64,000 nucleotides of DNA from assembly GCA_011947345.1 (NCBI GenBank), contig JAAVTG010000786.1, positions 40,158 to 104,157 on the forward strand, read 5' to 3'. Made by a program: the position numbers and the translations under genes. Source of the DNA: Phytophthora quininea (Eukaryota > Oomycota > Peronosporomycetes > Peronosporales > Peronosporaceae). Under the pieces are notes generated by a model, which saw only the letters and a list, made by a program, of their open reading frames with translations, did no database searches and was not told the DNA's origin. Shown piece after piece: positions 12,272 to 55,520 of this stretch. Position 1 is the first letter of the stretch, and every line of letters begins with the position of its first letter.

Positions 12272-12289
12272 CATTATGCTAGTCTTCGC

Positions 12290-12712: not shown

Positions 12713-13038
12713 GTCCTTGCACACCAAGAGCGCGCAGCCAGCGCTGGGGTCGGCGACAGCGCCGTGGATCTGCTGAGAGACTGCGGTAGCTATCGTCGCG
12801 CGTGTAAGCGGCCTGTTGTCACCAACGAAAGTCGGGCTGGCGATCCGTCTAGCGGTGAGTGGTCTTGGTTGCCACGGAGTACGGGGCCGATCTAGTGCGT
12901 CGGCGAGCGTGTGTCGGGGAGGAACGGGCGCGCGTTGTGGTGGGGACCACGCGTGCAGATGTGTGTGTGTGGTGTGCGACGCGTTGTAGCGCGTGTAGAG
13001 CGCTTTGTTGGGAGGTAAGGGTTGTTACGAGAAGGTAC

Positions 13039-13111
13039 TCCCAAATAGTCTAGGCGGTTAGGATACGTGGCTTTCACCCACGCGACCCGGGTTCGAGTCC
13101 CGGTTTGGGAA
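13039..13111 (+). tRNA. tRNA-Glu (UUC), array copy 1
   Basis: Reference copy. Acceptor TCCCAAA pairs with TTTGGGA; anticodon arm CGTGG-CTTTCAC-CCACG gives TTC; T arm CCGGG-TTCGAGT-CCCGG; discriminator A; no intron; B box GGTTCGAGTCC. No 3' CCA is encoded. Followed by TCTTTT (four T). The next copy starts 636 bp on (four minisatellite copies, the longest unit). Confidence 0.97.
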
Positions 13112-13322
13112 TCTTTTACTGTATCCACGCCCTTTATGTTGCTCGTTGAGGCGAACGGGCTGGTCCATCCTATGGCTTCTCCGGCCGTCTGCGCTGCGAC
13201 TGGCTCGGACCGCGGCCGTGTGTTTGCCGCAGACGACGCGCGAACAAGTACGCGACTGGTTGCAGCGGAAAACCGACCACCGACCGATGGTCGAGCTAGC
13301 CTCACCACCAAGAGCGCGCAGC

Positions 13323-13394
13323 CAGCGCTGGGGTCGGCGACAGCGCTGGGGTCAGCAACAGCGCTGGGGTCAGCGACAGCGCTGGGGTCAGCGA
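13323..13394. repeat. 18-bp minisatellite inside the array spacer (example with four copies)
   Basis: Four tandem copies of CAGCGCTGGGGTCRGCRA. The first copy in most units has GTCGGCGA, an inner one GTCAGCAA, the last GTCAGCGA. Other units have two or three copies; the partial first unit (12735 on) has one. This tract is the main source of unit length differences. Confidence 0.9.
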
Positions 13395-13674
13395 CAGCGC
13401 CGTGGATCTGCTGAGAGACTGCGGTAGCTATCGTCGCGCGTGTAAGCGGCCTGTTGTCACCAACGAAAGTCGGGCTGGCGATCCGTCTAGCGGTGAGTGG
13501 TCTTGGTTGCCACGGAGTACGGGGCCGATCTAGTGCGTCGGCGAGCGTGTGTCGGGGAGGAACGGGCGCGCGTTGTGGTGGGGACCACGCGTGCAGATGT
13601 GTGTGTGGTGTGCGACGCGTTGTAGCGCGTGTAGAGCGCTTTGTTGGGAGGTAAGGGTTGTTACGAGAAGGTAC

Positions 13675-13747
13675 TCCCAAATAGTCTAGGCGGTTAGGAT
13701 ACGTGGCTTTCACCCACGCGACCCGGGTTCGAGTCCCGGTTTGGGAA
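13675..13747 (+). tRNA. tRNA-Glu (UUC), array copy 2
   Basis: Consensus body; three T follow. Next copy 619 bp on. Confidence 0.96.
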
Positions 13748-14293
13748 TCTTTACTGTATCCACGCCCTTTATGTTGCTCGTTGAGGCGAACGGGCTGGTC
13801 CATCCTATGGCTTCTCCGGCCGTCTGCGCTGCGACTGGCTCGGACCGCGGCCGTGTGTTTGCCGCAGACGACGCGCGAACAAGTACGCGACTGGTTGCAG
13901 CGGAAAACCGACCACCGACCGATGGTCGAGCTAGCCTCACCACCAAGAGCGCGCAGCCAGCGCTGGGGTCGGCGACAGCGCTGGGGTCAGCAACAGCGCT
14001 GGGGTCAGCGACAGCGCCGTGGATCTGCTGAGAGACTGCGGTAGCTATCGTCGCGCGTGTAAGCGGCCTGTTGTCACCAACGAAAGTCGGGCTGGCGATC
14101 CGTCTAGCGGTGAGTGGTCTTGGTTGCCACGGAGTACGGGGCCGATCTAGTGCGTCGGCGAGCGTGTGTCGGGGAGGAACGGGCGCGCGTTGTGGTGGGG
14201 ACCACGCGTGCAGATGTGTGTGTGTGGTGTGCGACGCGTTGTAGCGCGTGTAGAGCGCTTTGTTGGGAGGTAAGGGTTGTTACGAGAAGGTAC

Positions 14294-14366
14294 TCCCAAA
14301 TAGTCTAGGCGGTTAGGATACGTGGCTTTCACCCACGCGACCCGGGTTCGAGTCCCGGTTTGGGAA
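14294..14366 (+). tRNA. tRNA-Glu (UUC), array copy 3
   Basis: Consensus body; four T follow. Next copy 620 bp on. Confidence 0.97.
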
Positions 14367-14913
14367 TCTTTTACTGTATCCACGCCCTTTATGTTGCTCG
14401 TTGAGGCGAACGGGCTGGTCCATCCTATGGCTTCTCCGGCCGTCTGCGCTGCGACTGGCTCGGACCGCGGCCGTGTGTTTGCCGCAGACGACGCGCGAAC
14501 AAGTACGCGACTGGTTGCAGCGGAAAACCGACCACCGACCGATGGTCGAGCTAGCCTCACCACCAAGAGCGCGCAGCCAGCGCTGGGGTCGGCGACAGCG
14601 CTGGGGTCAGCAACAGCGCTGGGGTCAGCGACAGCGCCGTGGATCTGCTGAGAGACTGCGGTAGCTATCGTCGCGCGTGTAAGCGGCCTGTTGTCACCAA
14701 CGAAAGTCGGGCTGGCGATCCGTCTAGCGGTGAGTGGTCTTGGTTGCCACGGAGTACGGGGCCGATCTAGTGCGTCGGCGAGCGTGTGTCGGGGAGGAAC
14801 GGGCGCGCGTTGTGGTGGGGACCACGCGTGCAGATGTGTGTGTGTGGTGTGCGACGCGTTGTAGCGCGTGTAGAGCGCTTTGTTGGGAGGTAAGGGTTGT
14901 TACGAGAAGGTAC

Positions 14914-14986
14914 TCCCAAATAGTCTAGGCGGTTAGGATACGTGGCTTTCACCCACGCGACCCGGGTTCGAGTCCCGGTTTGGGAA
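14914..14986 (+). tRNA. tRNA-Glu (UUC), array copy 4
   Basis: Consensus body; four T follow. Next copy 600 bp on. Confidence 0.97.
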
Positions 14987-15513
14987 TCTTTTACTGTATC
15001 CACGCCCTTTATGTTGCTCGTTGAGGCGAACGGGCTGGTCCATCCTATGGCTTCTCCGGCCGTCTGCGCTGCGACTGGCTCGGACCGCGGCCGTGTGTTT
15101 GCCGCAGACGACGCGCGAACAAGTACGCGACTGGTTGCAGCGGAAAACCGACCACCGACCGATGGTCGAGCTAGCCTCACCACCAAGAGCGCGCAGCCAG
15201 CGCTGGGGTCGGCGACAGCGCTGGGGTCAGCGACAGCGCCGTGGATCTGCTGAGAGACTGCGGTAGCTATCGTCGCGCGTGTAAGCGGCCTGTTGTCACC
15301 AACGAAAGTCGGGCTGGCGATCCGTCTAGCGGTGAGTGGTCTTGGTTGCCACGGAGTACGGGGCCGATCTAGTGCGTCGGCGAGCGTGTGTCGGGGAGGA
15401 ACGGGCGCGCGTTGTGGTGGGGACCACGCGTGCAGATGTGTGTGTGGTGTGCGACGCGTTGTAGCGCGTGTAGAGCGCTTTGTTGGGAGGTAAGGGTTGT
15501 TACGAGAAGGTAC

Positions 15514-15586
15514 TCCCAAATAGTCTAGGCGGTTAGGATACGTGGCTTTCACCCACGCGACCCGGGTTCGAGTCCCGGTTTGGGAA
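15514..15586 (+). tRNA. tRNA-Glu (UUC), array copy 5
   Basis: Consensus body; four T follow. Next copy 602 bp on. Confidence 0.97.
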
Positions 15587-16115
15587 TCTTTTACTGTATC
15601 CACGCCCTTTATGTTGCTCGTTGAGGCGAACGGGCTGGTCCATCCTATGGCTTCTCCGGCCGTCTGCGCTGCGACTGGCTCGGACCGCGGCCGTGTGTTT
15701 GCCGCAGACGACGCGCGAACAAGTACGCGACTGGTTGCAGCGGAAAACCGACCACCGACCGATGGTCGAGCTAGCCTCACCACCAAGAGCGCGCAGCCAG
15801 CGCTGGGGTCGGCGACAGCGCTGGGGTCAGCGACAGCGCCGTGGATCTGCTGAGAGACTGCGGTAGCTATCGTCGCGCGTGTAAGCGGCCTGTTGTCACC
15901 AACGAAAGTCGGGCTGGCGATCCGTCTAGCGGTGAGTGGTCTTGGTTGCCACGGAGTACGGGGCCGATCTAGTGCGTCGGCGAGCGTGTGTCGGGGAGGA
16001 ACGGGCGCGCGTTGTGGTGGGGACCACGCGTGCAGATGTGTGTGTGTGGTGTGCGACGCGTTGTAGCGCGTGTAGAGCGCTTTGTTGGGAGGTAAGGGTT
16101 GTTACGAGAAGGTAC

Positions 16116-16188
16116 TCCCAAATAGTCTAGGCGGTTAGGATACGTGGCTTTCACCCACGCGACCCGGGTTCGAGTCCCGGTTTGGGAA
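16116..16188 (+). tRNA. tRNA-Glu (UUC), array copy 6
   Basis: Consensus body; three T follow. Next copy 599 bp on. Confidence 0.96.
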
Positions 16189-16714
16189 TCTTTACTGTAT
16201 CCACGCCCTTTATGTTGCTCGTTGAGGCGAACGGGCTGGTCCATCCTATGGCTTCTCCGGCCGTCTGCGCTGCGACTGGCTCGGACCGCGGCCGTGTGTT
16301 TGCCGCAGACGACGCGCGAACAAGTACGCGACTGGTTGCAGCGGAAAACCGACCACCGACCGATGGTCGAGCTAGCCTCACCACCAAGAGCGCGCAGCCA
16401 GCGCTGGGGTCGGCGACAGCGCTGGGGTCAGCGACAGCGCCGTGGATCTGCTGAGAGACTGCGGTAGCTATCGTCGCGCGTGTAAGCGGCCTGTTGTCAC
16501 CAACGAAAGTCGGGCTGGCGATCCGTCTAGCGGTGAGTGGTCTTGGTTGCCACGGAGTACGGGGCCGATCTAGTGCGTCGGCGAGCGTGTGTCGGGGAGG
16601 AACGGGCGCGCGTTGTGGTGGGGACCACGCGTGCAGATGTGTGTGTGGTGTGCGACGCGTTGTAGCGCGTGTAGAGCGCTTTGTTGGGAGGTAAGGGTTG
16701 TTACGAGAAGGTAC

Positions 16715-16787
16715 TCCCAAATAGTCTAGGCGGTTAGGATACGTGGCTTTCACCCACGCGACCCGGGTTCGAGTCCCGGTTTGGGAA
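16715..16787 (+). tRNA. tRNA-Glu (UUC), array copy 7
   Basis: Consensus body; four T follow. Next copy 602 bp on. Confidence 0.97.
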
Positions 16788-17316
16788 TCTTTTACTGTAT
16801 CCACGCCCTTTATGTTGCTCGTTGAGGCGAACGGGCTGGTCCATCCTATGGCTTCTCCGGCCGTCTGCGCTGCGACTGGCTCGGACCGCGGCCGTGTGTT
16901 TGCCGCAGACGACGCGCGAACAAGTACGCGACTGGTTGCAGCGGAAAACCGACCACCGACCGATGGTCGAGCTAGCCTCACCACCAAGAGCGCGCAGCCA
17001 GCGCTGGGGTCGGCGACAGCGCTGGGGTCAGCGACAGCGCCGTGGATCTGCTGAGAGACTGCGGTAGCTATCGTCGCGCGTGTAAGCGGCCTGTTGTCAC
17101 CAACGAAAGTCGGGCTGGCGATCCGTCTAGCGGTGAGTGGTCTTGGTTGCCACGGAGTACGGGGCCGATCTAGTGCGTCGGCGAGCGTGTGTCGGGGAGG
17201 AACGGGCGCGCGTTGTGGTGGGGACCACGCGTGCAGATGTGTGTGTGTGGTGTGCGACGCGTTGTAGCGCGTGTAGAGCGCTTTGTTGGGAGGTAAGGGT
17301 TGTTACGAGAAGGTAC

Positions 17317-17389
17317 TCCCAAATAGTCTAGGCGGTTAGGATACGTGGCTTTCACCCACGCGACCCGGGTTCGAGTCCCGGTTTGGGAA
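17317..17389 (+). tRNA. tRNA-Glu (UUC), array copy 8
   Basis: Consensus body; four T follow. Next copy 599 bp on. Confidence 0.97.
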
Positions 17390-17915
17390 TCTTTTACTGT
17401 ATCCACGCCCTTTATGTTGCTCGTTGAGGCGAACGGGCTGGTCCATCCTATGGCTTCTCCGGCCGTCTGCGCTGCGACTGGCTCGGACCGCGGCCGTGTG
17501 TTTGCCGCAGACGACGCGCGAACAAGTACGCGACTGGTTGCAGCGGAAAACCGACCACCGACCGATGGTCGAGCTAGCCTCACCACCAGAGCGCGCAGCC
17601 AGCGCTGGGGTCGGCGACAGCGCTGGGGTCAGCGACAGCGCCGTGGATCTGCTGAGAGACTGCGGTAGCTATCGTCGCGCGTGTAAGCGGCCTGTTGTCA
17701 CCAACGAAAGTCGGGCTGGCGATCCGTCTAGCGGTGAGTGGTCTTGGTTGCCACGGAGTACGGGGCCGATCTAGTGCGTCGGCGAGCGTGTGTCGGGGAG
17801 GAACGGGCGCGCGTTGTGGTGGGGACCACGCGTGCAGATGTGTGTGTGGTGTGCGACGCGTTGTAGCGCGTGTAGAGCGCTTTGTTGGGAGGTAAGGGTT
17901 GTTACGAGAAGGTAC

Positions 17916-17988
17916 TCCCAAATAGTCTAGGCGGTTAGGATACGTGGCTTTCACCCACGCGACCCGGGTTCGAGTCCCGGTTTGGGAA
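17916..17988 (+). tRNA. tRNA-Glu (UUC), array copy 9
   Basis: Consensus body; four T follow. Next copy 602 bp on. Confidence 0.97.
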
Positions 17989-18517
17989 TCTTTTACTGTA
18001 TCCACGCCCTTTATGTTGCTCGTTGAGGCGAACGGGCTGGTCCATCCTATGGCTTCTCCGGCCGTCTGCGCTGCGACTGGCTCGGACCGCGGCCGTGTGT
18101 TTGCCGCAGACGACGCGCGAACAAGTACGCGACTGGTTGCAGCGGAAAACCGACCACCGACCGATGGTCGAGCTAGCCTCACCACCAAGAGCGCGCAGCC
18201 AGCGCTGGGGTCGGCGACAGCGCTGGGGTCAGCGACAGCGCCGTGGATCTGCTGAGAGACTGCGGTAGCTATCGTCGCGCGTGTAAGCGGCCTGTTGTCA
18301 CCAACGAAAGTCGGGCTGGCGATCCGTCTAGCGGTGAGTGGTCTTGGTTGCCACGGAGTACGGGGCCGATCTAGTGCGTCGGCGAGCGTGTGTCGGGGAG
18401 GAACGGGCGCGCGTTGTGGTGGGGACCACGCGTGCAGATGTGTGTGTGTGGTGTGCGACGCGTTGTAGCGCGTGTAGAGCGCTTTGTTGGGAGGTAAGGG
18501 TTGTTACGAGAAGGTAC

Positions 18518-18590
18518 TCCCAAATAGTCTAGGCGGTTAGGATACGTGGCTTTCACCCACGCGACCCGGGTTCGAGTCCCGGTTTGGGAA
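18518..18590 (+). tRNA. tRNA-Glu (UUC), array copy 10
   Basis: Consensus body; four T follow. Its downstream spacer has the one-base-shorter GCTCGACC variant. Next copy 601 bp on. Confidence 0.97.
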
Positions 18591-19118
18591 TCTTTTACTG
18601 TATCCACGCCCTTTATGTTGCTCGTTGAGGCGAACGGGCTGGTCCATCCTATGGCTTCTCCGGCCGTCTGCGCTGCGACTGGCTCGACCGCGGCCGTGTG
18701 TTTGCCGCAGACGACGCGCGAACAAGTACGCGACTGGTTGCAGCGGAAAACCGACCACCGACCGATGGTCGAGCTAGCCTCACCACCAAGAGCGCGCAGC
18801 CAGCGCTGGGGTCGGCGACAGCGCTGGGGTCAGCGACAGCGCCGTGGATCTGCTGAGAGACTGCGGTAGCTATCGTCGCGCGTGTAAGCGGCCTGTTGTC
18901 ACCAACGAAAGTCGGGCTGGCGATCCGTCTAGCGGTGAGTGGTCTTGGTTGCCACGGAGTACGGGGCCGATCTAGTGCGTCGGCGAGCGTGTGTCGGGGA
19001 GGAACGGGCGCGCGTTGTGGTGGGGACCACGCGTGCAGATGTGTGTGTGTGGTGTGCGACGCGTTGTAGCGCGTGTAGAGCGCTTTGTTGGGAGGTAAGG
19101 GTTGTTACGAGAAGGTAC

Positions 19119-19191
19119 TCCCAAATAGTCTAGGCGGTTAGGATACGTGGCTTTCACCCACGCGACCCGGGTTCGAGTCCCGGTTTGGGAA
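19119..19191 (+). tRNA. tRNA-Glu (UUC), array copy 11
   Basis: Consensus body; four T follow; GCTCGACC spacer variant. Next copy 616 bp on. Confidence 0.97.
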
Positions 19192-19734
19192 TCTTTTACT
19201 GTATCCACGCCCTTTATGTTGCTCGTTGAGGCGAACGGGCTGGTCCATCCTATGGCTTCTCCGGCCGTCTGCGCTGCGACTGGCTCGACCGCGGCCGTGT
19301 GTTTGCCGCAGACGACGCGCGAACAAGTACGCGACTGGTTGCAGCGGAAAACCGACCACCGACCGATGGTCGAGCTAGCCTCACCACCAAGAGCGCGCAG
19401 CCAGCGCTGGGTCGGCGACAGCGCTGGGGTCAGCGACAGCGCTGGGGTCAGCGACAGCGCCGTGGATCTGCTGAGAGACTGCGGTAGCTATCGTCGCGCG
19501 TGTAAGCGGCCTGTTGTCACCAACGAAAGTCGGGCTGGCGATCCGTCTAGCGGTGAGTGGTCTTGGTTGCCACGGAGTACGGGGCCGATCTAGTGCGTCG
19601 GCGAGCGTGTGTCGGGGAGGAACGGGCGCGCGTTGTGGTGGGGACCACGCGTGCAGATGTGTGTGTGGTGTGCGACGCGTTGTAGCGCGTGTAGAGCGCT
19701 TTGTTGGGAGGTAAGGGTTGTTACGAGAAGGTAC

Positions 19735-19807
19735 TCCCAAATAGTCTAGGCGGTTAGGATACGTGGCTTTCACCCACGCGACCCGGGTTCGAGTCCCGGT
19801 TTGGGAA
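19735..19807 (+). tRNA. tRNA-Glu (UUC), array copy 12
   Basis: Consensus body; four T follow. The spacer after it has an irregular minisatellite (extra GCGT step near 20035). Next copy 610 bp on. Confidence 0.97.
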
Positions 19808-20344
19808 TCTTTTACTGTATCCACGCCCTTTATGTTGCTCGTTGAGGCGAACGGGCTGGTCCATCCTATGGCTTCTCCGGCCGTCTGCGCTGCGACTGGC
19901 TCGGACCGCGGCCGTGTGTTTGCCGCAGACGACGCGCGAACAAGTACGCGACTGGTTGCAGCGGAAAACCGACCACCGACCGATGGTCGAGCTAGCCTCA
20001 CCACCAAGAGCGCGCAGCCAGCGCTGGGGTCAGCGCGTCAGCGACAGCGCTGGGGTCAGCGACAGCGCCGTGGATCTGCTGAGAGACTGCGGTAGCTATC
20101 GTCGCGCGTGTAAGCGGCCTGTTGTCACCAACGAAAGTCGGGCTGGCGATCCGTCTAGCGGTGAGTGGTCTTGGTTGCCACGGAGTACGGGGCCGATCTA
20201 GTGCGTCGGCGAGCGTGTGTCGGGGAGGAACGGGCGCGCGTTGTGGTGGGGACCACGCGTGCAGATGTGTGTGTGTGGTGTGCGACGCGTTGTAGCGCGT
20301 GTAGAGCGCTTTGTTGGGAGGTAAGGGTTGTTACGAGAAGGTAC

Positions 20345-20418
20345 TCCCAAATAGTCTAGGCGGTTAGGATACGTGGCTTTCACCCACGCGACCCGGGTTC
20401 AGAGTCCCGGTTTGGGAA
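20345..20418 (+). tRNA. tRNA-Glu array copy 13, T-loop insertion
   Basis: 74 nt: an extra A makes the T loop read TTCAGAG, which breaks the B box of the internal Pol III promoter. Three T follow. The same lesion occurs in copies 21 and 45. Probably not expressed as a normal tRNA. Confidence 0.85.
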
Positions 20419-20942
20419 TCTTTACTGTATCCACGCCCTTTATGTTGCTCGTTGAGGCGAACGGGCTGGTCCATCCTATGGCTTCTCCGGCCGTCTGCGC
20501 TGCGACTGGCTCGGACCGCGGCCGTGTGTTTGCCGCAGACGACGCGCGAACAAGTACGCGACTGGTTGCAGCGGAAAACCGACCACCGACCGATGGTCGA
20601 GCTAGCCTCACCACCAAGAGCGCGCAGCCAGCGCTGGGGTCGGCGACAGCGCTGGGGTCAGCGACAGCGCCGTGGATCTGCTGAGAGACTGCGGTAGCTA
20701 TCGTCGCGCGTGTAAGCGGCCTGTTGTCACCAACGAAAGTCGGGCTGGCGATCCGTCTAGCGGTGAGTGGTCTTGGTTGCCACGGAGTACGGGGCCGATC
20801 TAGTGCGTCGGCGAGCGTGTGTCGGGGAGGAACGGGCGCGCGTTGTGGTGGGGACCACGCGTGCAGATGTGTGTGGTGTGCGACGCGTTGTAGCGCGTGT
20901 AGAGCGCTTTGTTGGGAGGTAAGGGTTGTTACGAGAAGGTAC

Positions 20943-21014
20943 TCCCAAATAGTCTAGGCGGTTAGATACGTGGCTTTCACCCACGCGACCCGGGTTCGAG
21001 TCCCGGTTTGGGAA
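20943..21014 (+). tRNA. tRNA-Glu array copy 14, D-arm deletion
   Basis: 72 nt: one G of GGAT in the D arm is missing. Three T follow; GCTCGACC spacer variant. Next copy 595 bp on, the shortest interval. Confidence 0.85.
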
Positions 21015-21537
21015 TCTTTACTGTATCCACGCCCTTTATGTTGCTCGTTGAGGCGAACGGGCTGGTCCATCCTATGGCTTCTCCGGCCGTCTGCGCTGCG
21101 ACTGGCTCGACCGCGGCCGTGTGTTTGCCGCAGACGACGCGCGAACAAGTACGCGACTGGTTGCAGCGGAAAACCGACCACCGACCGATGGTCGAGCTAG
21201 CCTCACCACCAAGAGCGCGCAGCCAGCGCTGGGGTCGGCGACAGCGCTGGGGTCAGCGACAGCGCCGTGGATCTGCTGAGAGACTGCGGTAGCTATCGTC
21301 GCGCGTGTAAGCGGCCTGTTGTCACCAACGAAAGTCGGGCTGGCGATCCGTCTAGCGGTGAGTGGTCTTGGTTGCCACGGAGTACGGGGCCGATCTAGTG
21401 CGTCGGCGAGCGTGTGTCGGGGAGGAACGGGCGCGCGTTGTGGTGGGGACCACGCGTGCAGATGTGTGTGTGGTGTGCGACGCGTTGTAGCGTGTGTAGC
21501 GCTTTGTTGGGAGGTAAGGGTTGTTACGAGAAGGTAC

Positions 21538-21609
21538 TCCCAAATAGTCTAGGCGGTTAGGATACGTGGCTTCACCCACGCGACCCGGGTTCGAGTCCCG
21601 GTTTGGGAA
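21538..21609 (+). tRNA. tRNA-Glu array copy 15, anticodon-loop deletion
   Basis: 72 nt: one T is missing from the anticodon loop (CTTCAC, six nt). Three T follow; GCTCGACC spacer variant. Same lesion as copies 27 and 32. The upstream flank also differs (TAGCGTGTGTAGCGC). Confidence 0.85.
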
Positions 21610-22151
21610 TCTTTACTGTATCCACGCCCTTTATGTTGCTCGTTGAGGCGAACGGGCTGGTCCATCCTATGGCTTCTCCGGCCGTCTGCGCTGCGACTGG
21701 CTCGACCGCGGCCGTGTGTTTGCCGCAGACGACGCGCGAACAAGTACGCGACTGGTTGCAGCGGAAAACCGACCACCGACCGATGGTCGAGCTAGCCTCA
21801 CCACCAAGAGCGCGCAGCCAGCGCTGGGTCGGCGACAGCGCTGGGGTCAGCGACAGCGCTGGGGTCAGCGACAGCGCCGTGGATCTGCTGAGAGACTGCG
21901 GTAGCTATCGTCGCGCGTGTAAGCGGCCTGTTGTCACCAACGAAAGTCGGGCTGGCGATCCGTCTAGCGGTGAGTGGTCTTGGTTGCCACGGAGTACGGG
22001 GCCGATCTAGTGCGTCGGCGAGCGTGTGTCGGGGAGGAACGGGCGCGCGTTGTGGTGGGGACCACGCGTGCAGATGTGTGTGTGGTGTGCGACGCGTTGT
22101 AGCGCGTGTAGAGCGCTTTGTTGGGAGGTAAGGGTTGTTACGAGAAGGTAC

Positions 22152-22224
22152 TCCCAAATAGTCTAGGCGGTTAGGATACGTGGCTTTCACCCACGCGACC
22201 CGGGTTCGAGTCCCGGTTTGGGAA
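22152..22224 (+). tRNA. tRNA-Glu (UUC), array copy 16
   Basis: Consensus body; four T follow. Next copy 599 bp on. Confidence 0.97.
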
Positions 22225-22750
22225 TCTTTTACTGTATCCACGCCCTTTATGTTGCTCGTTGAGGCGAACGGGCTGGTCCATCCTATGGCTTCTCCGGCCG
22301 TCTGCGCTGCGACTGGCTCGGACCGCGGCCGTGTGTTTGCCGCAGACGACGCGCGAACAAGTACGCGACTGGTTGCAGCGGAAAACCGACCACCGACCGA
22401 TGGTCGAGCTAGCCTCACCACCAAGAGCGCGCAGCCAGCGCTGGGGTCGGCGACAGCGCTGGGGTCAGCGACAGCGCCGTGGATCTGCTGAGAGACTGCG
22501 GTAGCTATCGTCGCGCGTGTAAGCGGCCTGTTGTCACCAACGAAAGTCGGGCTGGCGATCCGTCTAGCGGTGAGTGGTCTTGGTTGCCACGGAGTACGGG
22601 GCCGATCTAGTGCGTCGGCGAGCGTGTGTCGGGAGGAACGGGCGCGCGTTGTGGTGGGGACCACGCGTGCAGATGTGTGTGTGGTGTGCGACGCGTTGTA
22701 GCGCGTGTAGAGCGCTTTGTTGGGAGGTAAGGGTTGTTACGAGAAGGTAC

Positions 22751-22823
22751 TCCCAAATAGTCTAGGCGGTTAGGATACGTGGCTTTCACCCACGCGACCC
22801 GGGTTCGAGTCCCGGTTTGGGAA
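22751..22823 (+). tRNA. tRNA-Glu (UUC), array copy 17
   Basis: Consensus body; three T follow. Next copy 600 bp on. Confidence 0.96.
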
Positions 22824-23350
22824 TCTTTACTGTATCCACGCCCTTTATGTTGCTCGTTGAGGCGAACGGGCTGGTCCATCCTATGGCTTCTCCGGCCGTC
22901 TGCGCTGCGACTGGCTCGGACCGCGGCCGTGTGTTTGCCGCAGACGACGCGCGAACAAGTACGCGACTGGTTGCAGCGGAAAACCGACCACCGACCGATG
23001 GTCGAGCTAGCCTCACCACCAAGAGCGCGCAGCCAGCGCTGGGGTCGGCGACAGCGCTGGGGTCAGCGACAGCGCCGTGGATCTGCTGAGAGACTGCGGT
23101 AGCTATCGTCGCGCGTGTAAGCGGCCTGTTGTCACCAACGAAAGTCGGGCTGGCGATCCGTCTAGCGGTGAGTGGTCTTGGTTGCCACGGAGTACGGGGC
23201 CGATCTAGTGCGTCGGCGAGCGTGTGTCGGGGAGGAACGGGCGCGCGTTGTGGTGGGGACCACGCGTGCAGATGTGTGTGTGTGTGTGCGACGCGTTGTA
23301 GCGCGTGTAGAGCGCTTTGTTGGGAGGTAAGGGTTGTTACGAGAAGGTAC

Positions 23351-34956: not shown

Positions 34957-35498
34957 TCTTTACTGTATCCACGCCCTTTATGTTGCTCGTTGAGGCGAAC
35001 GGGCTGGTCCATCCTATGGCTTCTCCGGCCGTCTGCGCTGCGACTGGCTCGACCGCGGCCGTGTGTTTGCCGCAGACGACGCGCGAACAAGTACGCGACT
35101 GGTTGCAGCGGAAAACCGACCACCGACCGATGGTCGAGCTAGCCTCACCACCAAGAGCGCGCAGCCAGCGCTGGGGTCGGCGACAGCGCTGGTCAGCAAC
35201 AGCGCTGGGGTCAGCGACAGCGCCGTGGATCTGCTGAGAGACTGCGGTAGCTATCGTCGCGCGTGTAAGCGGCCTGTTGTCACCAACGAAAGTCGGGCTG
35301 GCGATCCGTCTAGCGGTGAGTGGTCTTGGTTGCCACGGAGTACGGGGCCGATCTAGTGCGTCGGCGAGCGTGTGTCGGGGAGGAACGGGCGCGCGTTGTG
35401 GTGGGGACCACGCGTGCAGATGTGTGTGTGTGTGTGCGACGCGTTGTAGCGCGTGTAGAGCGCTTTGTTGGGAGGTAAGGGTTGTTACGAGAAGGTAC

Positions 35499-35571
35499 TC
35501 CCAAATAGTCTAGGCGGTTAGGATACGTGGCTTTCACCCACGCGACCCGGGTTCGAGTCCCGGTTTGGGAA
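35499..35571 (+). tRNA. tRNA-Glu (UUC), array copy 38
   Basis: Consensus body; four T follow. Next copy 602 bp on. Confidence 0.97.
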
Positions 35572-36100
35572 TCTTTTACTGTATCCACGCCCTTTATGTT
35601 GCTCGTTGAGGCGAACGGGCTGGTCCATCCTATGGCTTCTCCGGCCGTCTGCGCTGCGACTGGCTCGGACCGCGGCCGTGTGTTTGCCGCAGACGACGCG
35701 CGAACAAGTACGCGACTGGTTGCAGCGGAAAACCGACCACCGACCGATGGTCGAGCTAGCCTCACCACCAAGAGCGCGCAGCCAGCGCTGGGGTCGGCGA
35801 CAGCGCTGGGGTCAGCGACAGCGCCGTGGATCTGCTGAGAGACTGCGGTAGCTATCGTCGCGCGTGTAAGCGGCCTGTTGTCACCAACGAAAGTCGGGCT
35901 GGCGATCCGTCTAGCGGTGAGTGGTCTTGGTTGCCACGGAGTACGGGGCCGATCTAGTGCGTCGGCGAGCGTGTGTCGGGGAGGAACGGGCGCGCGTTGT
36001 GGTGGGGACCACGCGTGCAGATGTGTGTGTGTGGTGTGCGACGCGTTGTAGCGCGTGTAGAGCGCTTTGTTGGGAGGTAAGGGTTGTTACGAGAAGGTAC

Positions 36101-36173
36101 TCCCAAATAGTCTAGGCGGTTAGGATACGTGGCTTTCACCCACGCGACCCGGGTTCGAGTCCCGGTTTGGGAA
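36101..36173 (+). tRNA. tRNA-Glu (UUC), array copy 39
   Basis: Consensus body; four T follow; GCTCGACC spacer variant. Next copy 601 bp on. Confidence 0.97.
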
Positions 36174-36701
36174 TCTTTTACTGTATCCACGCCCTTTATG
36201 TTGCTCGTTGAGGCGAACGGGCTGGTCCATCCTATGGCTTCTCCGGCCGTCTGCGCTGCGACTGGCTCGACCGCGGCCGTGTGTTTGCCGCAGACGACGC
36301 GCGAACAAGTACGCGACTGGTTGCAGCGGAAAACCGACCACCGACCGATGGTCGAGCTAGCCTCACCACCAAGAGCGCGCAGCCAGCGCTGGGGTCGGCG
36401 ACAGCGCTGGGGTCAGCGACAGCGCCGTGGATCTGCTGAGAGACTGCGGTAGCTATCGTCGCGCGTGTAAGCGGCCTGTTGTCACCAACGAAAGTCGGGC
36501 TGGCGATCCGTCTAGCGGTGAGTGGTCTTGGTTGCCACGGAGTACGGGGCCGATCTAGTGCGTCGGCGAGCGTGTGTCGGGGAGGAACGGGCGCGCGTTG
36601 TGGTGGGGACCACGCGTGCAGATGTGTGTGTGTGGTGTGCGACGCGTTGTAGCGCGTGTAGAGCGCTTTGTTGGGAGGTAAGGGTTGTTACGAGAAGGTA
36701 C

Positions 36702-36774
36702 TCCCAAATAGTCTAGGCGGTTAGGATACGTGGCTTTCACCCACGCGACCCGGGTTCGAGTCCCGGTTTGGGAA
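36702..36774 (+). tRNA. tRNA-Glu (UUC), array copy 40
   Basis: Consensus body; three T follow; GCTCGACC spacer variant. Next copy 617 bp on. Confidence 0.96.
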
Positions 36775-37318
36775 TCTTTACTGTATCCACGCCCTTTATG
36801 TTGCTCGTTGAGGCGAACGGGCTGGTCCATCCTATGGCTTCTCCGGCCGTCTGCGCTGCGACTGGCTCGACCGCGGCCGTGTGTTTGCCGCAGACGACGC
36901 GCGAACAAGTACGCGACTGGTTGCAGCGGAAAACCGACCACCGACCGATGGTCGAGCTAGCCTCACCACCAAGAGCGCGCAGCCAGCGCTGGGTCGGCGA
37001 CAGCGCTGGGGTCAGCAACAGCGCTGGGGTCAGCGACAGCGCCGTGGATCTGCTGAGAGACTGCGGTAGCTATCGTCGCGCGTGTAAGCGGCCTGTTGTC
37101 ACCAACGAAAGTCGGGCTGGCGATCCGTCTAGCGGTGAGTGGTCTTGGTTGCCACGGAGTACGGGGCCGATCTAGTGCGTCGGCGAGCGTGTGTCGGGGA
37201 GGAACGGGCGCGCGTTGTGGTGGGGACCACGCGTGCAGATGTGTGTGTGTGGTGTGCGACGCGTTGTAGCGCGTGTAGAGCGCTTTGTTGGGAGGTAAGG
37301 GTTGTTACGAGAAGGTAC

Positions 37319-37391
37319 TCCCAAATAGTCTAGGCGGTTAGGATACGTGGCTTTCACCCACGCGACCCGGGTTCGAGTCCCGGTTTGGGAA
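37319..37391 (+). tRNA. tRNA-Glu (UUC), array copy 41
   Basis: Consensus body; three T follow; GCTCGACC spacer variant. Next copy 600 bp on. Confidence 0.96.
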
Positions 37392-37918
37392 TCTTTACTG
37401 TATCCACGCCCTTTATGTTGCTCGTTGAGGCGAACGGGCTGGTCCATCCTATGGCTTCTCCGGCCGTCTGCGCTGCGACTGGCTCGACCGCGGCCGTGTG
37501 TTTGCCGCAGACGACGCGCGAACAAGTACGCGACTGGTTGCAGCGGAAAACCGACCACCGACCGATGGTCGAGCTAGCCTCACCACCAAGAGCGCGCAGC
37601 CAGCGCTGGGGTCGGCGACAGCGCTGGGGTCAGCGACAGCGCCGTGGATCTGCTGAGAGACTGCGGTAGCTATCGTCGCGCGTGTAAGCGGCCTGTTGTC
37701 ACCAACGAAAGTCGGGCTGGCGATCCGTCTAGCGGTGAGTGGTCTTGGTTGCCACGGAGTACGGGGCCGATCTAGTGCGTCGGCGAGCGTGTGTCGGGGA
37801 GGAACGGGCGCGCGTTGTGGTGGGGACCACGCGTGCAGATGTGTGTGTGTGGTGTGCGACGCGTTGTAGCGCGTGTAGAGCGCTTTGTTGGGAGGTAAGG
37901 GTTGTTACGAGAAGGTAC

Positions 37919-37991
37919 TCCCAAATAGTCTAGGCGGTTAGGATACGTGGCTTTCACCCACGCGACCCGGGTTCGAGTCCCGGTTTGGGAA
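37919..37991 (+). tRNA. tRNA-Glu (UUC), array copy 42
   Basis: Consensus body; four T follow. The spacer after it lacks one AG in CCAAGAGCGCG. Next copy 616 bp on. Confidence 0.97.
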
Positions 37992-38534
37992 TCTTTTACT
38001 GTATCCACGCCCTTTATGTTGCTCGTTGAGGCGAACGGGCTGGTCCATCCTATGGCTTCTCCGGCCGTCTGCGCTGCGACTGGCTCGGACCGCGGCCGTG
38101 TGTTTGCCGCAGACGACGCGCGAACAAGTACGCGACTGGTTGCAGCGGAAAACCGACCACCGACCGATGGTCGAGCTAGCCTCACCACCAAGCGCGCAGC
38201 CAGCGCTGGGGTCGGCGACAGCGCTGGGGTCAGCAACAGCGCTGGGGTCAGCGACAGCGCCGTGGATCTGCTGAGAGACTGCGGTAGCTATCGTCGCGCG
38301 TGTAAGCGGCCTGTTGTCACCAACGAAAGTCGGGCTGGCGATCCGTCTAGCGGTGAGTGGTCTTGGTTGCCACGGAGTACGGGGCCGATCTAGTGCGTCG
38401 GCGAGCGTGTGTCGGGGAGGAACGGGCGCGCGTTGTGGTGGGGACCACGCGTGCAGATGTGTGTGTGGTGTGCGACGCGTTGTAGCGCGTGTAGAGCGCT
38501 TTGTTGGGAGGTAAGGGTTGTTACGAGAAGGTAC

Positions 38535-38607
38535 TCCCAAATAGTCTAGGCGGTTAGGATACGTGGCTTTCACCCACGCGACCCGGGTTCGAGTCCCGGT
38601 TTGGGAA
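38535..38607 (+). tRNA. tRNA-Glu (UUC), array copy 43
   Basis: Consensus body; four T follow; GCTCGACC spacer variant. Next copy 600 bp on. Confidence 0.97.
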
Positions 38608-39134
38608 TCTTTTACTGTATCCACGCCCTTTATGTTGCTCGTTGAGGCGAACGGGCTGGTCCATCCTATGGCTTCTCCGGCCGTCTGCGCTGCGACTGGC
38701 TCGACCGCGGCCGTGTGTTTGCCGCAGACGACGCGCGAACAAGTACGCGACTGGTTGCAGCGGAAAACCGACCACCGACCGATGGTCGAGCTAGCCTCAC
38801 CACCAAGAGCGCGCAGCCAGCGCTGGGGTCGGCGACAGCGCTGGGGTCAGCGACAGCGCCGTGGATCTGCTGAGAGACTGCGGTAGCTATCGTCGCGCGT
38901 GTAAGCGGCCTGTTGTCACCAACGAAAGTCGGGCTGGCGATCCGTCTAGCGGTGAGTGGTCTTGGTTGCCACGGAGTACGGGGCCGATCTAGTGCGTCGG
39001 CGAGCGTGTGTCGGGGAGGAACGGGCGCGCGTTGTGGTGGGGACCACGCGTGCAGATGTGTGTGTGTGTGTGCGACGCGTTGTAGCGCGTGTAGAGCGCT
39101 TTGTTGGGAGGTAAGGGTTGTTACGAGAAGGTAC

Positions 39135-39207
39135 TCCCAAATAGTCTAGGCGGTTAGGATACGTGGCTTTCACCCACGCGACCCGGGTTCGAGTCCCGGT
39201 TTGGGAA
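39135..39207 (+). tRNA. tRNA-Glu (UUC), array copy 44
   Basis: Consensus body; four T follow. Next copy 602 bp on. Confidence 0.97.
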
Positions 39208-39736
39208 TCTTTTACTGTATCCACGCCCTTTATGTTGCTCGTTGAGGCGAACGGGCTGGTCCATCCTATGGCTTCTCCGGCCGTCTGCGCTGCGACTGGC
39301 TCGGACCGCGGCCGTGTGTTTGCCGCAGACGACGCGCGAACAAGTACGCGACTGGTTGCAGCGGAAAACCGACCACCGACCGATGGTCGAGCTAGCCTCA
39401 CCACCAAGAGCGCGCAGCCAGCGCTGGGGTCGGCGACAGCGCTGGGGTCAGCGACAGCGCCGTGGATCTGCTGAGAGACTGCGGTAGCTATCGTCGCGCG
39501 TGTAAGCGGCCTGTTGTCACCAACGAAAGTCGGGCTGGCGATCCGTCTAGCGGTGAGTGGTCTTGGTTGCCACGGAGTACGGGGCCGATCTAGTGCGTCG
39601 GCGAGCGTGTGTCGGGGAGGAACGGGCGCGCGTTGTGGTGGGGACCACGCGTGCAGATGTGTGTGTGTGGTGTGCGACGCGTTGTAGCGCGTGTAGAGCG
39701 CTTTGTTGGGAGGTAAGGGTTGTTACGAGAAGGTAC

Positions 39737-39810
39737 TCCCAAATAGTCTAGGCGGTTAGGATACGTGGCTTTCACCCACGCGACCCGGGTTCAGAGTCCC
39801 GGTTTGGGAA
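39737..39810 (+). tRNA. tRNA-Glu array copy 45, T-loop insertion
   Basis: 74 nt with the TTCAGAG T-loop insertion of copies 13 and 21; three T follow. Unlike those two it carries the GCTCGACC spacer variant, so the lesion occurs on two spacer backgrounds. Confidence 0.85.
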
Positions 39811-40337
39811 TCTTTACTGTATCCACGCCCTTTATGTTGCTCGTTGAGGCGAACGGGCTGGTCCATCCTATGGCTTCTCCGGCCGTCTGCGCTGCGACTG
39901 GCTCGACCGCGGCCGTGTGTTTGCCGCAGACGACGCGCGAACAAGTACGCGACTGGTTGCAGCGGAAAACCGACCACCGACCGATGGTCGAGCTAGCCTC
40001 ACCACCAAGAGCGCGCAGCCAGCGCTGGGGTCGGCGACAGCGCTGGGGTCAGCGACAGCGCCGTGGATCTGCTGAGAGACTGCGGTAGCTATCGTCGCGC
40101 GTGTAAGCGGCCTGTTGTCACCAACGAAAGTCGGGCTGGCGATCCGTCTAGCGGTGAGTGGTCTTGGTTGCCACGGAGTACGGGGCCGATCTAGTGCGTC
40201 GGCGAGCGTGTGTCGGGGAGGAACGGGCGCGCGTTGTGGTGGGGACCACGCGTGCAGATGTGTGTGTGTGGTGTGCGACGCGTTGTAGCGCGTGTAGAGC
40301 GCTTTGTTGGGAGGTAAGGGTTGTTACGAGAAGGTAC

Positions 40338-40410
40338 TCCCAAATAGTCTAGGCGGTTAGGATACGTGGCTTTCACCCACGCGACCCGGGTTCGAGTCCC
40401 GGTTTGGGAA
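40338..40410 (+). tRNA. tRNA-Glu (UUC), array copy 46
   Basis: Consensus body; four T follow. Next copy 601 bp on. Confidence 0.97.
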
Positions 40411-40938
40411 TCTTTTACTGTATCCACGCCCTTTATGTTGCTCGTTGAGGCGAACGGGCTGGTCCATCCTATGGCTTCTCCGGCCGTCTGCGCTGCGACT
40501 GGCTCGGACCGCGGCCGTGTGTTTGCCGCAGACGACGCGCGAACAAGTACGCGACTGGTTGCAGCGGAAAACCGACCACCGACCGATGGTCGAGCTAGCC
40601 TCACCACCAAGAGCGCGCAGCCAGCGCTGGGGTCGGCGACAGCGCTGGGGTCAGCGACAGCGCCGTGGATCTGCTGAGAGACTGCGGTAGCTATCGTCGC
40701 GCGTGTAAGCGGCCTGTTGTCACCAACGAAAGTCGGGCTGGCGATCCGTCTAGCGGTGAGTGGTCTTGGTTGCCACGGAGTACGGGGCCGATCTAGTGCG
40801 TCGGCGAGCGTGTGTCGGGGAGGAACGGGCGCGCGTTGTGGTGGGGACCACGCGTGCAGATGTGTGTGTGTGTGTGCGACGCGTTGTAGCGCGTGTAGAG
40901 CGCTTTGTTGGGAGGTAAGGGTTGTTACGAGAAGGTAC

Positions 40939-41011
40939 TCCCAAATAGTCTAGGCGGTTAGGATACGTGGCTTTCACCCACGCGACCCGGGTTCGAGTCC
41001 CGGTTTGGGAA
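40939..41011 (+). tRNA. tRNA-Glu (UUC), array copy 47
   Basis: Consensus body; four T follow. Next copy 602 bp on. Confidence 0.97.
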
Positions 41012-41540
41012 TCTTTTACTGTATCCACGCCCTTTATGTTGCTCGTTGAGGCGAACGGGCTGGTCCATCCTATGGCTTCTCCGGCCGTCTGCGCTGCGAC
41101 TGGCTCGGACCGCGGCCGTGTGTTTGCCGCAGACGACGCGCGAACAAGTACGCGACTGGTTGCAGCGGAAAACCGACCACCGACCGATGGTCGAGCTAGC
41201 CTCACCACCAAGAGCGCGCAGCCAGCGCTGGGGTCGGCGACAGCGCTGGGGTCAGCGACAGCGCCGTGGATCTGCTGAGAGACTGCGGTAGCTATCGTCG
41301 CGCGTGTAAGCGGCCTGTTGTCACCAACGAAAGTCGGGCTGGCGATCCGTCTAGCGGTGAGTGGTCTTGGTTGCCACGGAGTACGGGGCCGATCTAGTGC
41401 GTCGGCGAGCGTGTGTCGGGGAGGAACGGGCGCGCGTTGTGGTGGGGACCACGCGTGCAGATGTGTGTGTGTGGTGTGCGACGCGTTGTAGCGCGTGTAG
41501 AGCGCTTTGTTGGGAGGTAAGGGTTGTTACGAGAAGGTAC

Positions 41541-41610
41541 TCCCAAATTGTCTAGGCGGTTAGGATACGTGGCTTTCACCCACGCGACCAGGTTCGAGTC
41601 GGTTTGGGAA
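41541..41610 (+). tRNA. tRNA-Glu array copy 48, damaged T arm
   Basis: 70 nt: position 9 is T, and the T arm reads CCAGGTTCGAGTCGG, so stem pairing is lost on both sides. The only indel-bearing copy followed by four T. Confidence 0.85.
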
Positions 41611-42139
41611 TCTTTTACTGTATCCACGCCCTTTATGTTGCTCGTTGAGGCGAACGGGCTGGTCCATCCTATGGCTTCTCCGGCCGTCTGCGCTGCGACT
41701 GGCTCGGACCGCGGCCGTGTGTTTGCCGCAGACGACGCGCGAACAAGTACGCGACTGGTTGCAGCGGAAAACCGACCACCGACCGATGGTCGAGCTAGCC
41801 TCACCACCAAGAGCGCGCAGCCAGCGCTGGGGTCGGCGACAGCGCTGGGGTCAGCGACAGCGCCGTGGATCTGCTGAGAGACTGCGGTAGCTATCGTCGC
41901 GCGTGTAAGCGGCCTGTTGTCACCAACGAAAGTCGGGCTGGCGATCCGTCTAGCGGTGAGTGGTCTTGGTTGCCACGGAGTACGGGGCCGATCTAGTGCG
42001 TCGGCGAGCGTGTGTCGGGGAGGAACGGGCGCGCGTTGTGGTGGGGACCACGCGTGCAGATGTGTGTGTGTGGTGTGCGACGCGTTGTAGCGCGTGTAGA
42101 GCGCTTTGTTGGGAGGTAAGGGTTGTTACGAGAAGGTAC

Positions 42140-42212
42140 TCCCAAATAGTCTAGGCGGTTAGGATACGTGGCTTTCACCCACGCGACCCGGGTTCGAGTC
42201 CCGGTTTGGGAA
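42140..42212 (+). tRNA. tRNA-Glu (UUC), array copy 49
   Basis: Consensus body; four T follow. Next copy 617 bp on. Confidence 0.97.
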
Positions 42213-42756
42213 TCTTTTACTGTATCCACGCCCTTTATGTTGCTCGTTGAGGCGAACGGGCTGGTCCATCCTATGGCTTCTCCGGCCGTCTGCGCTGCGA
42301 CTGGCTCGGACCGCGGCCGTGTGTTTGCCGCAGACGACGCGCGAACAAGTACGCGACTGGTTGCAGCGGAAAACCGACCACCGACCGATGGTCGAGCTAG
42401 CCTCACCACCAAGAGCGCGCAGCCAGCGCTGGGGTCGGCGACAGCGCTGGGGTCAGCAACAGCGCTGGGGTCAGCGACAGCGCCGTGGATCTGCTGAGAG
42501 ACTGCGGTAGCTATCGTCGCGCGTGTAAGCGGCCTGTTGTCACCAACGAAAGTCGGGCTGGCGATCCGTCTAGCGGTGAGTGGTCTTGGTTGCCACGGAG
42601 TACGGGGCCGATCTAGTGCGTCGGCGAGCGTGTGTCGGGGAGGAACGGGCGCGCGTTGTGGTGGGGACCACGCGTGCAGATGTGTGTGTGTGTGCGACGC
42701 GTTGTAGCGCGTGTAGAGCGCTTTGTTGGGAGGTAAGGGTTGTTACGAGAAGGTAC

Positions 42757-42829
42757 TCCCAAATTGTCTAGGCGGTTAGGATACGTGGCTTTCACCCACG
42801 CGACCCGGGTTCGAGTCCCGGTTTGGGAA
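42757..42829 (+). tRNA. tRNA-Glu (UUC), array copy 50, A9T
   Basis: 73 nt with T at position 9 as in copies 23 and 48; three T follow. Next copy 618 bp on. Confidence 0.93.
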
Positions 42830-43374
42830 TCTTTACTGTATCCACGCCCTTTATGTTGCTCGTTGAGGCGAACGGGCTGGTCCATCCTATGGCTTCTCCG
42901 GCCGTCTGCGCTGCGACTGGCTCGGACCGCGGCCGTGTGTTTGCCGCAGACGACGCGCGAACAAGTACGCGACTGGTTGCAGCGGAAAACCGACCACCGA
43001 CCGATGGTCGAGCTAGCCTCACCACCAAGAGCGCGCAGCCAGCGCTGGGGTCGGCGACAGCGCTGGGGTCAGCAACAGCGCTGGGGTCAGCGACAGCGCC
43101 GTGGATCTGCTGAGAGACTGCGGTAGCTATCGTCGCGCGTGTAAGCGGCCTGTTGTCACCAACGAAAGTCGGGCTGGCGATCCGTCTAGCGGTGAGTGGT
43201 CTTGGTTGCCACGGAGTACGGGGCCGATCTAGTGCGTCGGCGAGCGTGTGTCGGGGAGGAACGGGCGCGCGTTGTGGTGGGGACCACGCGTGCAGATGTG
43301 TGTGTGTGTGTGCGACGCGTTGTAGCGCGTGTAGAGCGCTTTGTTGGGAGGTAAGGGTTGTTACGAGAAGGTAC

Positions 43375-43447
43375 TCCCAAATAGTCTAGGCGGTTAGGAT
43401 ACGTGGCTTTCACCCACGCGACCCGGGTTCGAGTCCCGGTTTGGGAA
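43375..43447 (+). tRNA. tRNA-Glu (UUC), array copy 51
   Basis: Consensus body; three T follow. Next copy 617 bp on. Confidence 0.96.
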
Positions 43448-43991
43448 TCTTTACTGTATCCACGCCCTTTATGTTGCTCGTTGAGGCGAACGGGCTGGTC
43501 CATCCTATGGCTTCTCCGGCCGTCTGCGCTGCGACTGGCTCGGACCGCGGCCGTGTGTTTGCCGCAGACGACGCGCGAACAAGTACGCGACTGGTTGCAG
43601 CGGAAAACCGACCACCGACCGATGGTCGAGCTAGCCTCACCACCAAGAGCGCGCAGCCAGCGCTGGGGTCGGCGACAGCGCTGGGGTCAGCAACAGCGCT
43701 GGGGTCAGCGACAGCGCCGTGGATCTGCTGAGAGACTGCGGTAGCTATCGTCGCGCGTGTAAGCGGCCTGTTGTCACCAACGAAAGTCGGGCTGGCGATC
43801 CGTCTAGCGGTGAGTGGTCTTGGTTGCCACGGAGTACGGGGCCGATCTAGTGCGTCGGCGAGCGTGTGTCGGGGAGGAACGGGCGCGCGTTGTGGTGGGG
43901 ACCACGCGTGCAGATGTGTGTGTGGTGTGCGACGCGTTGTAGCGCGTGTAGAGCGCTTTGTTGGGAGGTAAGGGTTGTTACGAGAAGGTAC

Positions 43992-44064
43992 TCCCAAATA
44001 GTCTAGGCGGTTAGGATACGTGGCTTTCACCCACGCGACCCGGGTTCGAGTCCCGGTTTGGGAA
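43992..44064 (+). tRNA. tRNA-Glu (UUC), array copy 52
   Basis: Consensus body; four T follow. Next copy 620 bp on. Confidence 0.97.
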
Positions 44065-44611
44065 TCTTTTACTGTATCCACGCCCTTTATGTTGCTCGTT
44101 GAGGCGAACGGGCTGGTCCATCCTATGGCTTCTCCGGCCGTCTGCGCTGCGACTGGCTCGGACCGCGGCCGTGTGTTTGCCGCAGACGACGCGCGAACAA
44201 GTACGCGACTGGTTGCAGCGGAAAACCGACCACCGACCGATGGTCGAGCTAGCCTCACCACCAAGAGCGCGCAGCCAGCGCTGGGGTCGGCGACAGCGCT
44301 GGGGTCAGCAACAGCGCTGGGGTCAGCGACAGCGCCGTGGATCTGCTGAGAGACTGCGGTAGCTATCGTCGCGCGTGTAAGCGGCCTGTTGTCACCAACG
44401 AAAGTCGGGCTGGCGATCCGTCTAGCGGTGAGTGGTCTTGGTTGCCACGGAGTACGGGGCCGATCTAGTGCGTCGGCGAGCGTGTGTCGGGGAGGAACGG
44501 GCGCGCGTTGTGGTGGGGACCACGCGTGCAGATGTGTGTGTGTGGTGTGCGACGCGTTGTAGCGCGTGTAGAGCGCTTTGTTGGGAGGTAAGGGTTGTTA
44601 CGAGAAGGTAC

Positions 44612-44684
44612 TCCCAAATAGTCTAGGCGGTTAGGATACGTGGCTTTCACCCACGCGACCCGGGTTCGAGTCCCGGTTTGGGAA
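44612..44684 (+). tRNA. tRNA-Glu (UUC), array copy 53
   Basis: Consensus body; four T follow. Next copy 617 bp on. Confidence 0.97.
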
Positions 44685-45228
44685 TCTTTTACTGTATCCA
44701 CGCCCTTTATGTTGCTCGTTGAGGCGAACGGGCTGGTCCATCCTATGGCTTCTCCGGCCGTCTGCGCTGCGACTGGCTCGGACCGCGGCCGTGTGTTTGC
44801 CGCAGACGACGCGCGAACAAGTACGCGACTGGTTGCAGCGGAAAACCGACCACCGACCGATGGTCGAGCTAGCCTCACCACCAAGAGCGCGCAGCCAGCG
44901 CTGGGGTCGGCGACAGCGCTGGGGTCAGCAACAGCGCTGGGGTCAGCGACAGCGCCGTGGATCTGCTGAGAGACTGCGGTAGCTATCGTCGCGCGTGTAA
45001 GCGGCCTGTTGTCACCAACGAAAGTCGGGCTGGCGATCCGTCTAGCGGTGAGTGGTCTTGGTTGCCACGGAGTACGGGGCCGATCTAGTGCGTCGGCGAG
45101 CGTGTGTCGGGGAGGAACGGGCGCGCGTTGTGGTGGGGACCACGCGTGCAGATGTGTGTGTGTGTGCGACGCGTTGTAGCGCGTGTAGAGCGCTTTGTTG
45201 GGAGGTAAGGGTTGTTACGAGAAGGTAC

Positions 45229-45301
45229 TCCCAAATAGTCTAGGCGGTTAGGATACGTGGCTTTCACCCACGCGACCCGGGTTCGAGTCCCGGTTTGGGA
45301 A
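45229..45301 (+). tRNA. tRNA-Glu (UUC), array copy 54 (last)
   Basis: Consensus body; four T follow. Array homology ends 59 bp downstream. Confidence 0.97.
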
Positions 45302-45360
45302 TCTTTTACTGTATCCACGCCCTTTATGTTGCTCGTTGAGGCGAACGGGCTGGTCCATCC

Positions 45361-46745: not shown

Positions 46746-46748
46746 ACT

Positions 46749-55510: not shown

Positions 55511-55520
55511 GGCAGCTTGT

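Follow-up and report, generated by a model that had tools for sequence, protein, structure and literature searches.

The window analysed here is a stretch of 64,000 nucleotides (C779:40158-104157) from an oomycete genome assembly of 87.2 Mb in 993 contigs; coordinates without a contig name are window positions. It contains a tandem array of 54 tRNA-Glu(UUC) genes on the forward strand, at 12722-45360. An array of this kind cannot arise by chance. We think it likely that the array represents a tandem family of normal nuclear tRNA genes, transcribed by RNA polymerase III (Pol III), whose copies are kept alike by unequal exchange or gene conversion within an allele. The array belongs to a tRNA-gene organisation already published for the Peronosporaceae (PMC9584435, PMC11540230), and it is one among several in this genome. 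A second version of the locus, with 14 copies, is present on contig C543. We refer to the 54-copy version on C779 as array A and to the 14-copy version as array B.

Array A consists of 53 complete periods with partial units at its ends, and both of its limits (12722 and 45360) fall within these partial units. Each unit carries one tRNA gene. Anchor words directly upstream and directly downstream of the tRNA were each counted 54 times, and the exact 73-nt main body was counted 44 times on the forward strand and not once on the reverse strand. These counts bear out the initial annotation, which had described 54 copies in units of about 607 bp on one strand, with 44 identical bodies. The first copy, at 13039-13111 (+), has the main type of body common to 44 of the 54 copies and is supported by ARAGORN, Rfam and fold prediction; the last, detected by ARAGORN, lies at 45229-45301 (+), 59 bp before the array end. 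ARAGORN detected 53 of the 54 copies, calling 50 as Glu-TTC and three, each with a one-base deletion in the anticodon loop, as "???"; it missed a damaged copy at about 41541. With Rfam, 52 copies scored above the cut-off, and those at 21538 and 41541 were missed. The same annotation had stated that the bodies fold perfectly. The main body does have a predicted cloverleaf, at -23.6 kcal/mol, but this stability is not distinctive, with 64 of 200 shuffled sequences folding equally well.

The complete units are 595-636 bp long (mean 607.4) and comprise 36 distinct sequences, or 16 if homopolymer lengths are ignored. Copy number of an 18-bp minisatellite in the spacer (CAGCGCTGGGGTCAGCGA, roughly 2 to 4 copies in each unit; 13323-13400 (+) in the first unit) is the main cause of the differences in unit length. 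Length variants cluster along the array (19 runs, compared with 26.4 in shuffles, p=0.025). The longest exact repeat within the array is 1348 bp, and hence the array contains no large duplicated block.

The anatomy of the unit suggests a self-contained Pol III gene, in which internal A and B boxes would be followed by a terminator directly behind the tRNA and then by the spacer. Motifs that we take to be the A box and B box (GGTTCGAGTC) lie within the tRNA-Glu body. The putative terminator is a T-run that begins two bases 3ʹ of the tRNA (13114-13117 (+) in the first unit). This run is TTTT in 35 of the 54 units and TTT in the other 19, and no run of four T residues occurs elsewhere in any of the 53 complete units. 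No TATAAAA-type box is present in the 40 bases upstream of the arrayed tRNA-Glu genes. No gene was recognised in the spacer of the array A unit. Two spacer words (31 and 33 bases), sought in the whole assembly with up to three mismatches, a search that could miss strongly diverged copies, were found at 68 and 66 places, all of them in the two Glu(UUC) arrays: 54 on C779 and 14 on C543 for the first word, and 53 and 13 for the second. A separate spacer search, in which 40 of 69 candidates were scored, placed all 40 within array A; alone, it cannot exclude dispersed copies. We also considered, and do not favour, the idea that the unit is protein-coding. An open reading frame (ORF) on the plus strand of the spacer, with a common start in both arrays, encodes 68 aa in array A and 62 aa in array B. 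Its frame and length vary among units and its 48 compared codons show no sign of constraint (2 silent and 3 replacement changes), though the changes are too few to exclude coding. Minus-strand ORFs inside the array mostly begin with TTG or GTG.

The second version of the locus provides a view of how such an array changes. Array B has 14 copies in units of 593-594 bp, and all 14 bodies are of the main type. Just outside array A is a single tRNA-Val(UAC) gene at 12199-12272 (+), found by Rfam and by ARAGORN, which reads it as tRNA-Val(TAC). The same tRNA-Val region, again with the gene detected by ARAGORN, and an identical left junction are present on C543, so that this gene is a marker common to the two contigs. 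It has TATAAAA upstream, and 66-bp matches occur at two further places besides the homologous C543 region. The right flank of array B aligns straight across the array end. Identity between the two contigs is 94.1% over 1.7 kb on the left and 93.5% over 0.8 kb on the right. With gaps excluded, units are 99.8% identical within each version and 96.7% identical between them. Alignment of the two consensus units shows 19 substitutions over 584 aligned sites and 28 gap columns, none of them in the 73-nt body. Together, the identities within and between versions and the shared junctions indicate that the two versions are common in origin and in their ends, and that each has been homogenised separately. 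They are probably two haplotypes, that is, alleles; this is the simplest reading of the alignments, and segmental duplication is a possible alternative. The presence of 54-copy and 14-copy versions in one assembly agrees with the earlier description of a rapidly varying, satellite-like array of a single isoacceptor.

Farther to the right, a stretch of ~5.2 kb (46151-51361) is without counterpart in the 2.8 kb at the corresponding position of the other contig (C543:1012124-1014933). It is bordered by 93% identity on the array side and by 97-100% on the opposite side, and is possibly an insertion or a recombination boundary. Beyond it, identity is 97.3% over 1.6 kb and, in an overlapping stretch of 7.9 kb that holds the ORFs for a proline-tRNA ligase and a UGP/PGM protein, 100% after rounding.

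How might the two versions have diverged in this way? We propose that copies would be added, removed and homogenised through gene conversion or unequal crossing-over confined to a single allele. Since exchange would occur within one allele, each allele would drift as a block. This scheme assumes that the versions on C779 and C543 are allelic, as we infer from their alignment, and most copies would be transcribed.

Several observations weigh against this account. First, the 19 units with TTT only lack the longer T-run at the end of the tRNA. Second, the data do not establish that the tRNA body is under purifying selection. We compared the fraction of variable columns in the body with that in the rest of the unit, both here and in tRNA arrays elsewhere in the genome that are described below. 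For array A the fractions were 2/73 and 9/529 (p=0.86), and for array B 0/73 and 3/521 (p=0.67); consensus differences between A and B fell at 0/73 and 19/511 columns (p=0.076). One Lys array gave 0/74 and 77/1389 (p=0.016), the sole comparison to reach that level, the Thr array 0/72 and 2/1300 (p=0.90), and 86 pooled Glu(CUC) units 10/74 and 119/563 (p=0.080). The six comparisons together give p=0.072. A value of p=0.0096, obtained from the two best comparisons alone, is unreliable and is superseded by the value over all six. The tRNA body is never worse off beyond chance, and there is little to argue for extra constraint.

Third, part of the variation in array A may be sequencing error. Ten bodies depart from the main type: three carry an A-to-T substitution close to the 5ʹ end, and one of these three is badly damaged; in three others the B box has gained an A; three lack one T of the anticodon loop; and one lacks a G. 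The B box insertions are in copy 13 (20345-20418), copy 21 (25154) and copy 45 (39737), all of which are probably weak or dead. The anticodon-loop deletions are in copy 15 (21538-21609), copy 27 (28796) and copy 32 (31811). The body of copy 48 (+, approximate ends 41541-41610) is damaged and was detected by neither ARAGORN nor Rfam; copies 13 and 15, like the rest of the array, are on the forward strand. Body variants and a short T-run coincide in eight of these ten units, which is above chance (p=0.002), and some variants may therefore be residual long-read errors. We considered transcription-linked mutation of the tRNA bodies as a source of these variants, and dropped it as inseparable from sequencing error.

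What else could account for so many copies of one tRNA gene? The array could have a structural or chromatin role, either as a boundary formed by dense TFIIIC binding or as a heterochromatic, mostly silent array with few active tRNA genes. We regard this as a possibility to be held tentatively. There are precedents of both kinds: the Ser-Tyr-Tyr cluster of Arabidopsis is silenced in most tissues (PMC12308677), a tRNA repeat on human chromosome 1 has been implicated as a boundary (PMC4041453), and the authors of the Entamoeba work suspect that many copies are inactive (PMC2652664). The difference between 54 and 14 copies suggests that no exact dosage is required, and the tRNA body is without clear extra conservation.

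Selection for a high dosage of a GAA-decoding tRNA is an improbable explanation; the initial annotation had listed high dosage as a possible role, beside a source of tRNA fragments and a chromatin boundary. The two contigs together carry 68 copies, and 58 of the 68 bodies are of the main type. However, GAA is the less frequent of the two Glu codons in the five flanking ORFs that make up the codon count (35 GAA, 98 GAG; one of the five, 54893-55642, has no Pfam match), and genes for Glu(CUC), Lys, Thr, Arg, Gln, Trp and Ser tRNAs are arrayed too. In Phytophthora infestans, moreover, tRNA copy number and codon use are only modestly correlated (PMC9584435). A special need for GAA decoding thus finds little favour here. 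We think it more doubtful still that the locus is a heterozygous, fast-changing dosage switch, in which unequal exchange would shift the number of tRNA-Glu(UUC) genes (54 on one haplotype and 14 on the other) and sister isolates would differ in GAA decoding or in the supply of Glu tRNA fragments.

It is very unlikely that the tRNA and its spacer form a retroposon resembling a short interspersed nuclear element (SINE) that has accumulated in place. Such an origin has been proposed for very similar clusters in Peronospora effusa, which have 717-bp units and up to 970 tRNA genes and have expanded fast (PMC11540230), and the present unit of ~600 bp likewise has a tRNA at its head. Nonetheless, a Pol III stop is expected directly behind the tRNA, with no other run of four T residues in the 53 full units, and hence an RNA copy of the whole unit would hardly be made, although read-through may occur in the 19 units with TTT. 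With up to three mismatches allowed, the two spacer words are confined to the two versions of this locus. No target-site duplication was found at the array ends, where the longest word common to the 60-nt flanks is 7 nt and lies off the junctions, and the single unit scanned has no A- or T-run of five or more. The main tRNA type retains its cloverleaf and anticodon. Indeed, the authors of the Peronospora effusa study regard each family as being at one place and probably not mobile (PMC11540230). We reject a SINE origin on the position of the terminator, the single place and the missing target-site duplication.

We give equally little weight to an assembly artefact, in which a few true copies would have been inflated or one locus split into two contigs: homopolymer deletions are concentrated in certain shared units, 16 of the 53 unit sequences are distinct when homopolymer lengths are ignored, and C779 is a 104-kb contig among the 993, but no exact repeat exceeds 1348 bp, similar arrays in P. 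infestans were consistent with read depth (PMC9584435), and C779 and C543 differ by ~6% beside the array and so are not one sequence assembled twice.

The initial annotation did not know this array as a described system. In fact, same-gene tandem tRNA arrays have been published for both P. infestans and Peronospora effusa (PMC9584435, PMC11540230). In P. infestans, ~64% of tRNA genes are in same-gene arrays, with read-depth support; 271 tRNA-Cys(GCA) genes are in 513-nt units; 7,519 + 3,537 tRNA genes are reported, and growth of arrays through unequal crossing-over has been proposed (PMC9584435). As in those arrays, each unit of the present one carries a single isoacceptor and near-identical copies lie at one place. 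Its distinguishing points are that it is a Glu(UUC) array, from another species, and has two lengths within one assembly. In Peronospora effusa, each isolate has 33-39 clusters of 10-970 tRNA genes, among them 570 tRNA-Arg copies in 717-bp units termed SINE-like. Cluster size differs between isolates, and this variation has been ascribed to non-allelic homologous recombination (PMC11540230). Those clusters resemble the present array in having units of ~600-700 bp, one near-identical tRNA and one place per family. They are also reported to have ORFs between the tRNAs, some with a signal peptide and an RXLR motif (PMC11540230), whereas the spacer ORF here has no sign of constraint.

More distant parallels exist. 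The arrays of Entamoeba are also tandem tRNA units, and intergenic short tandem repeats in two Entamoeba species recall the 18-bp repeats described here; in that unrelated lineage, however, units have up to 5 tRNA genes, compared with one gene per unit in the present array (PMC2652664). Trimer arrays elsewhere in the present genome do hold several tRNA genes per unit. The tandem tRNA genes of Arabidopsis and of human 1q23.3 are alike in being tandem, and copy number varies in man. They belong to unrelated lineages and differ in form: in Arabidopsis the units are Ser-Tyr-Tyr or, for a set of four Cys genes, 0.4 kb long, and in man they measure 7.3 kb (PMC12308677, PMC10701932, PMC4041453). We found no published description of the exact locus in a literature search that was not aimed at the species. 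Thus, the single-isoacceptor array is an already known kind in the Peronosporaceae, and the present locus is a good example of it rather than a new system. What is new are the 54-copy and 14-copy versions, the terminator and spacer evidence against a SINE-like reading, and the further arrays in the genome.

The flanking genes place the host in the Phytophthora lineage of oomycetes, within the Peronosporaceae, by sequence similarity. The UGP/phosphoglucomutase ORF is 91% identical to its match in Phytophthora kernoviae and 89% to that in P. ramorum; for the proline-tRNA ligase, the match in P. boehmeriae covers 96% of the ORF at 75%, and that in P. kernoviae covers 44% at 85%. A first look for tRNA genes in the whole genome returned 4332 candidates, of which 63 were scored, and is not a gene count. 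Running ARAGORN on 18 genome stretches selected for tRNA hits, a sample that does not measure array frequency, revealed further arrays of Glu(CUC), Thr(UGU) and Lys(UUU) genes, an Arg(ACG)-Gln(UUG)-Gln(CUG) trimer and a Thr(CGU)-Trp(CCA)-Ser(GCU) trimer. The Glu(CUC) arrays have 85 genes that read CTC and two that read SeC, in seven stretches. On each of the two contigs, one is found on the opposite strand ~43-56 kb upstream of tRNA-Val (C543:938500-948499; C779:1-10000), and additional units are on C814, C33 and C32. The Lys(UUU) array on C473 switches orientation, with genes on the minus strand up to 83155 and on the plus strand from 85796. In the Thr-Trp-Ser trimer, at C62:1-10000, Thr(CGU) and Ser(GCU) are on the minus strand and Trp(CCA) is on the plus strand; its gene content is that of the trimer named for P. 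infestans.

Other observations concern the surroundings of the array and the assembly. ORFs for DUF6570 and a PIF1 helicase lie at 2181-6560, a combination that we take to be Helitron-like. Most of a ~0.9-kb repeat at 55538-56442 recurs, at 89-97% identity, on 14 other contigs. The tRNA-dense, mitochondrial-looking stretch C389:90000-99999, whose best matches recur ~36.6 kb further along the contig, is probably part of a mitochondrial genome assembled more than once.

What does this locus mean for the tRNA arrays of the Peronosporaceae? These arrays have been read in two ways, as products of unequal crossing-over of tRNA genes (PMC9584435) and as SINE-like elements (PMC11540230). The present locus speaks for unequal crossing-over, given its two versions, a putative terminator for each tRNA and a spacer confined to the two arrays. 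P. infestans (PMC9584435) and the present genome have the Thr(CGU)-Trp(CCA)-Ser(GCU) trimer array in common, which points to an early origin of this organisation in the group. A locus with 54 copies on one version and 14 on the other would allow ideas of dosage, silencing and boundary function to be compared within one strain.

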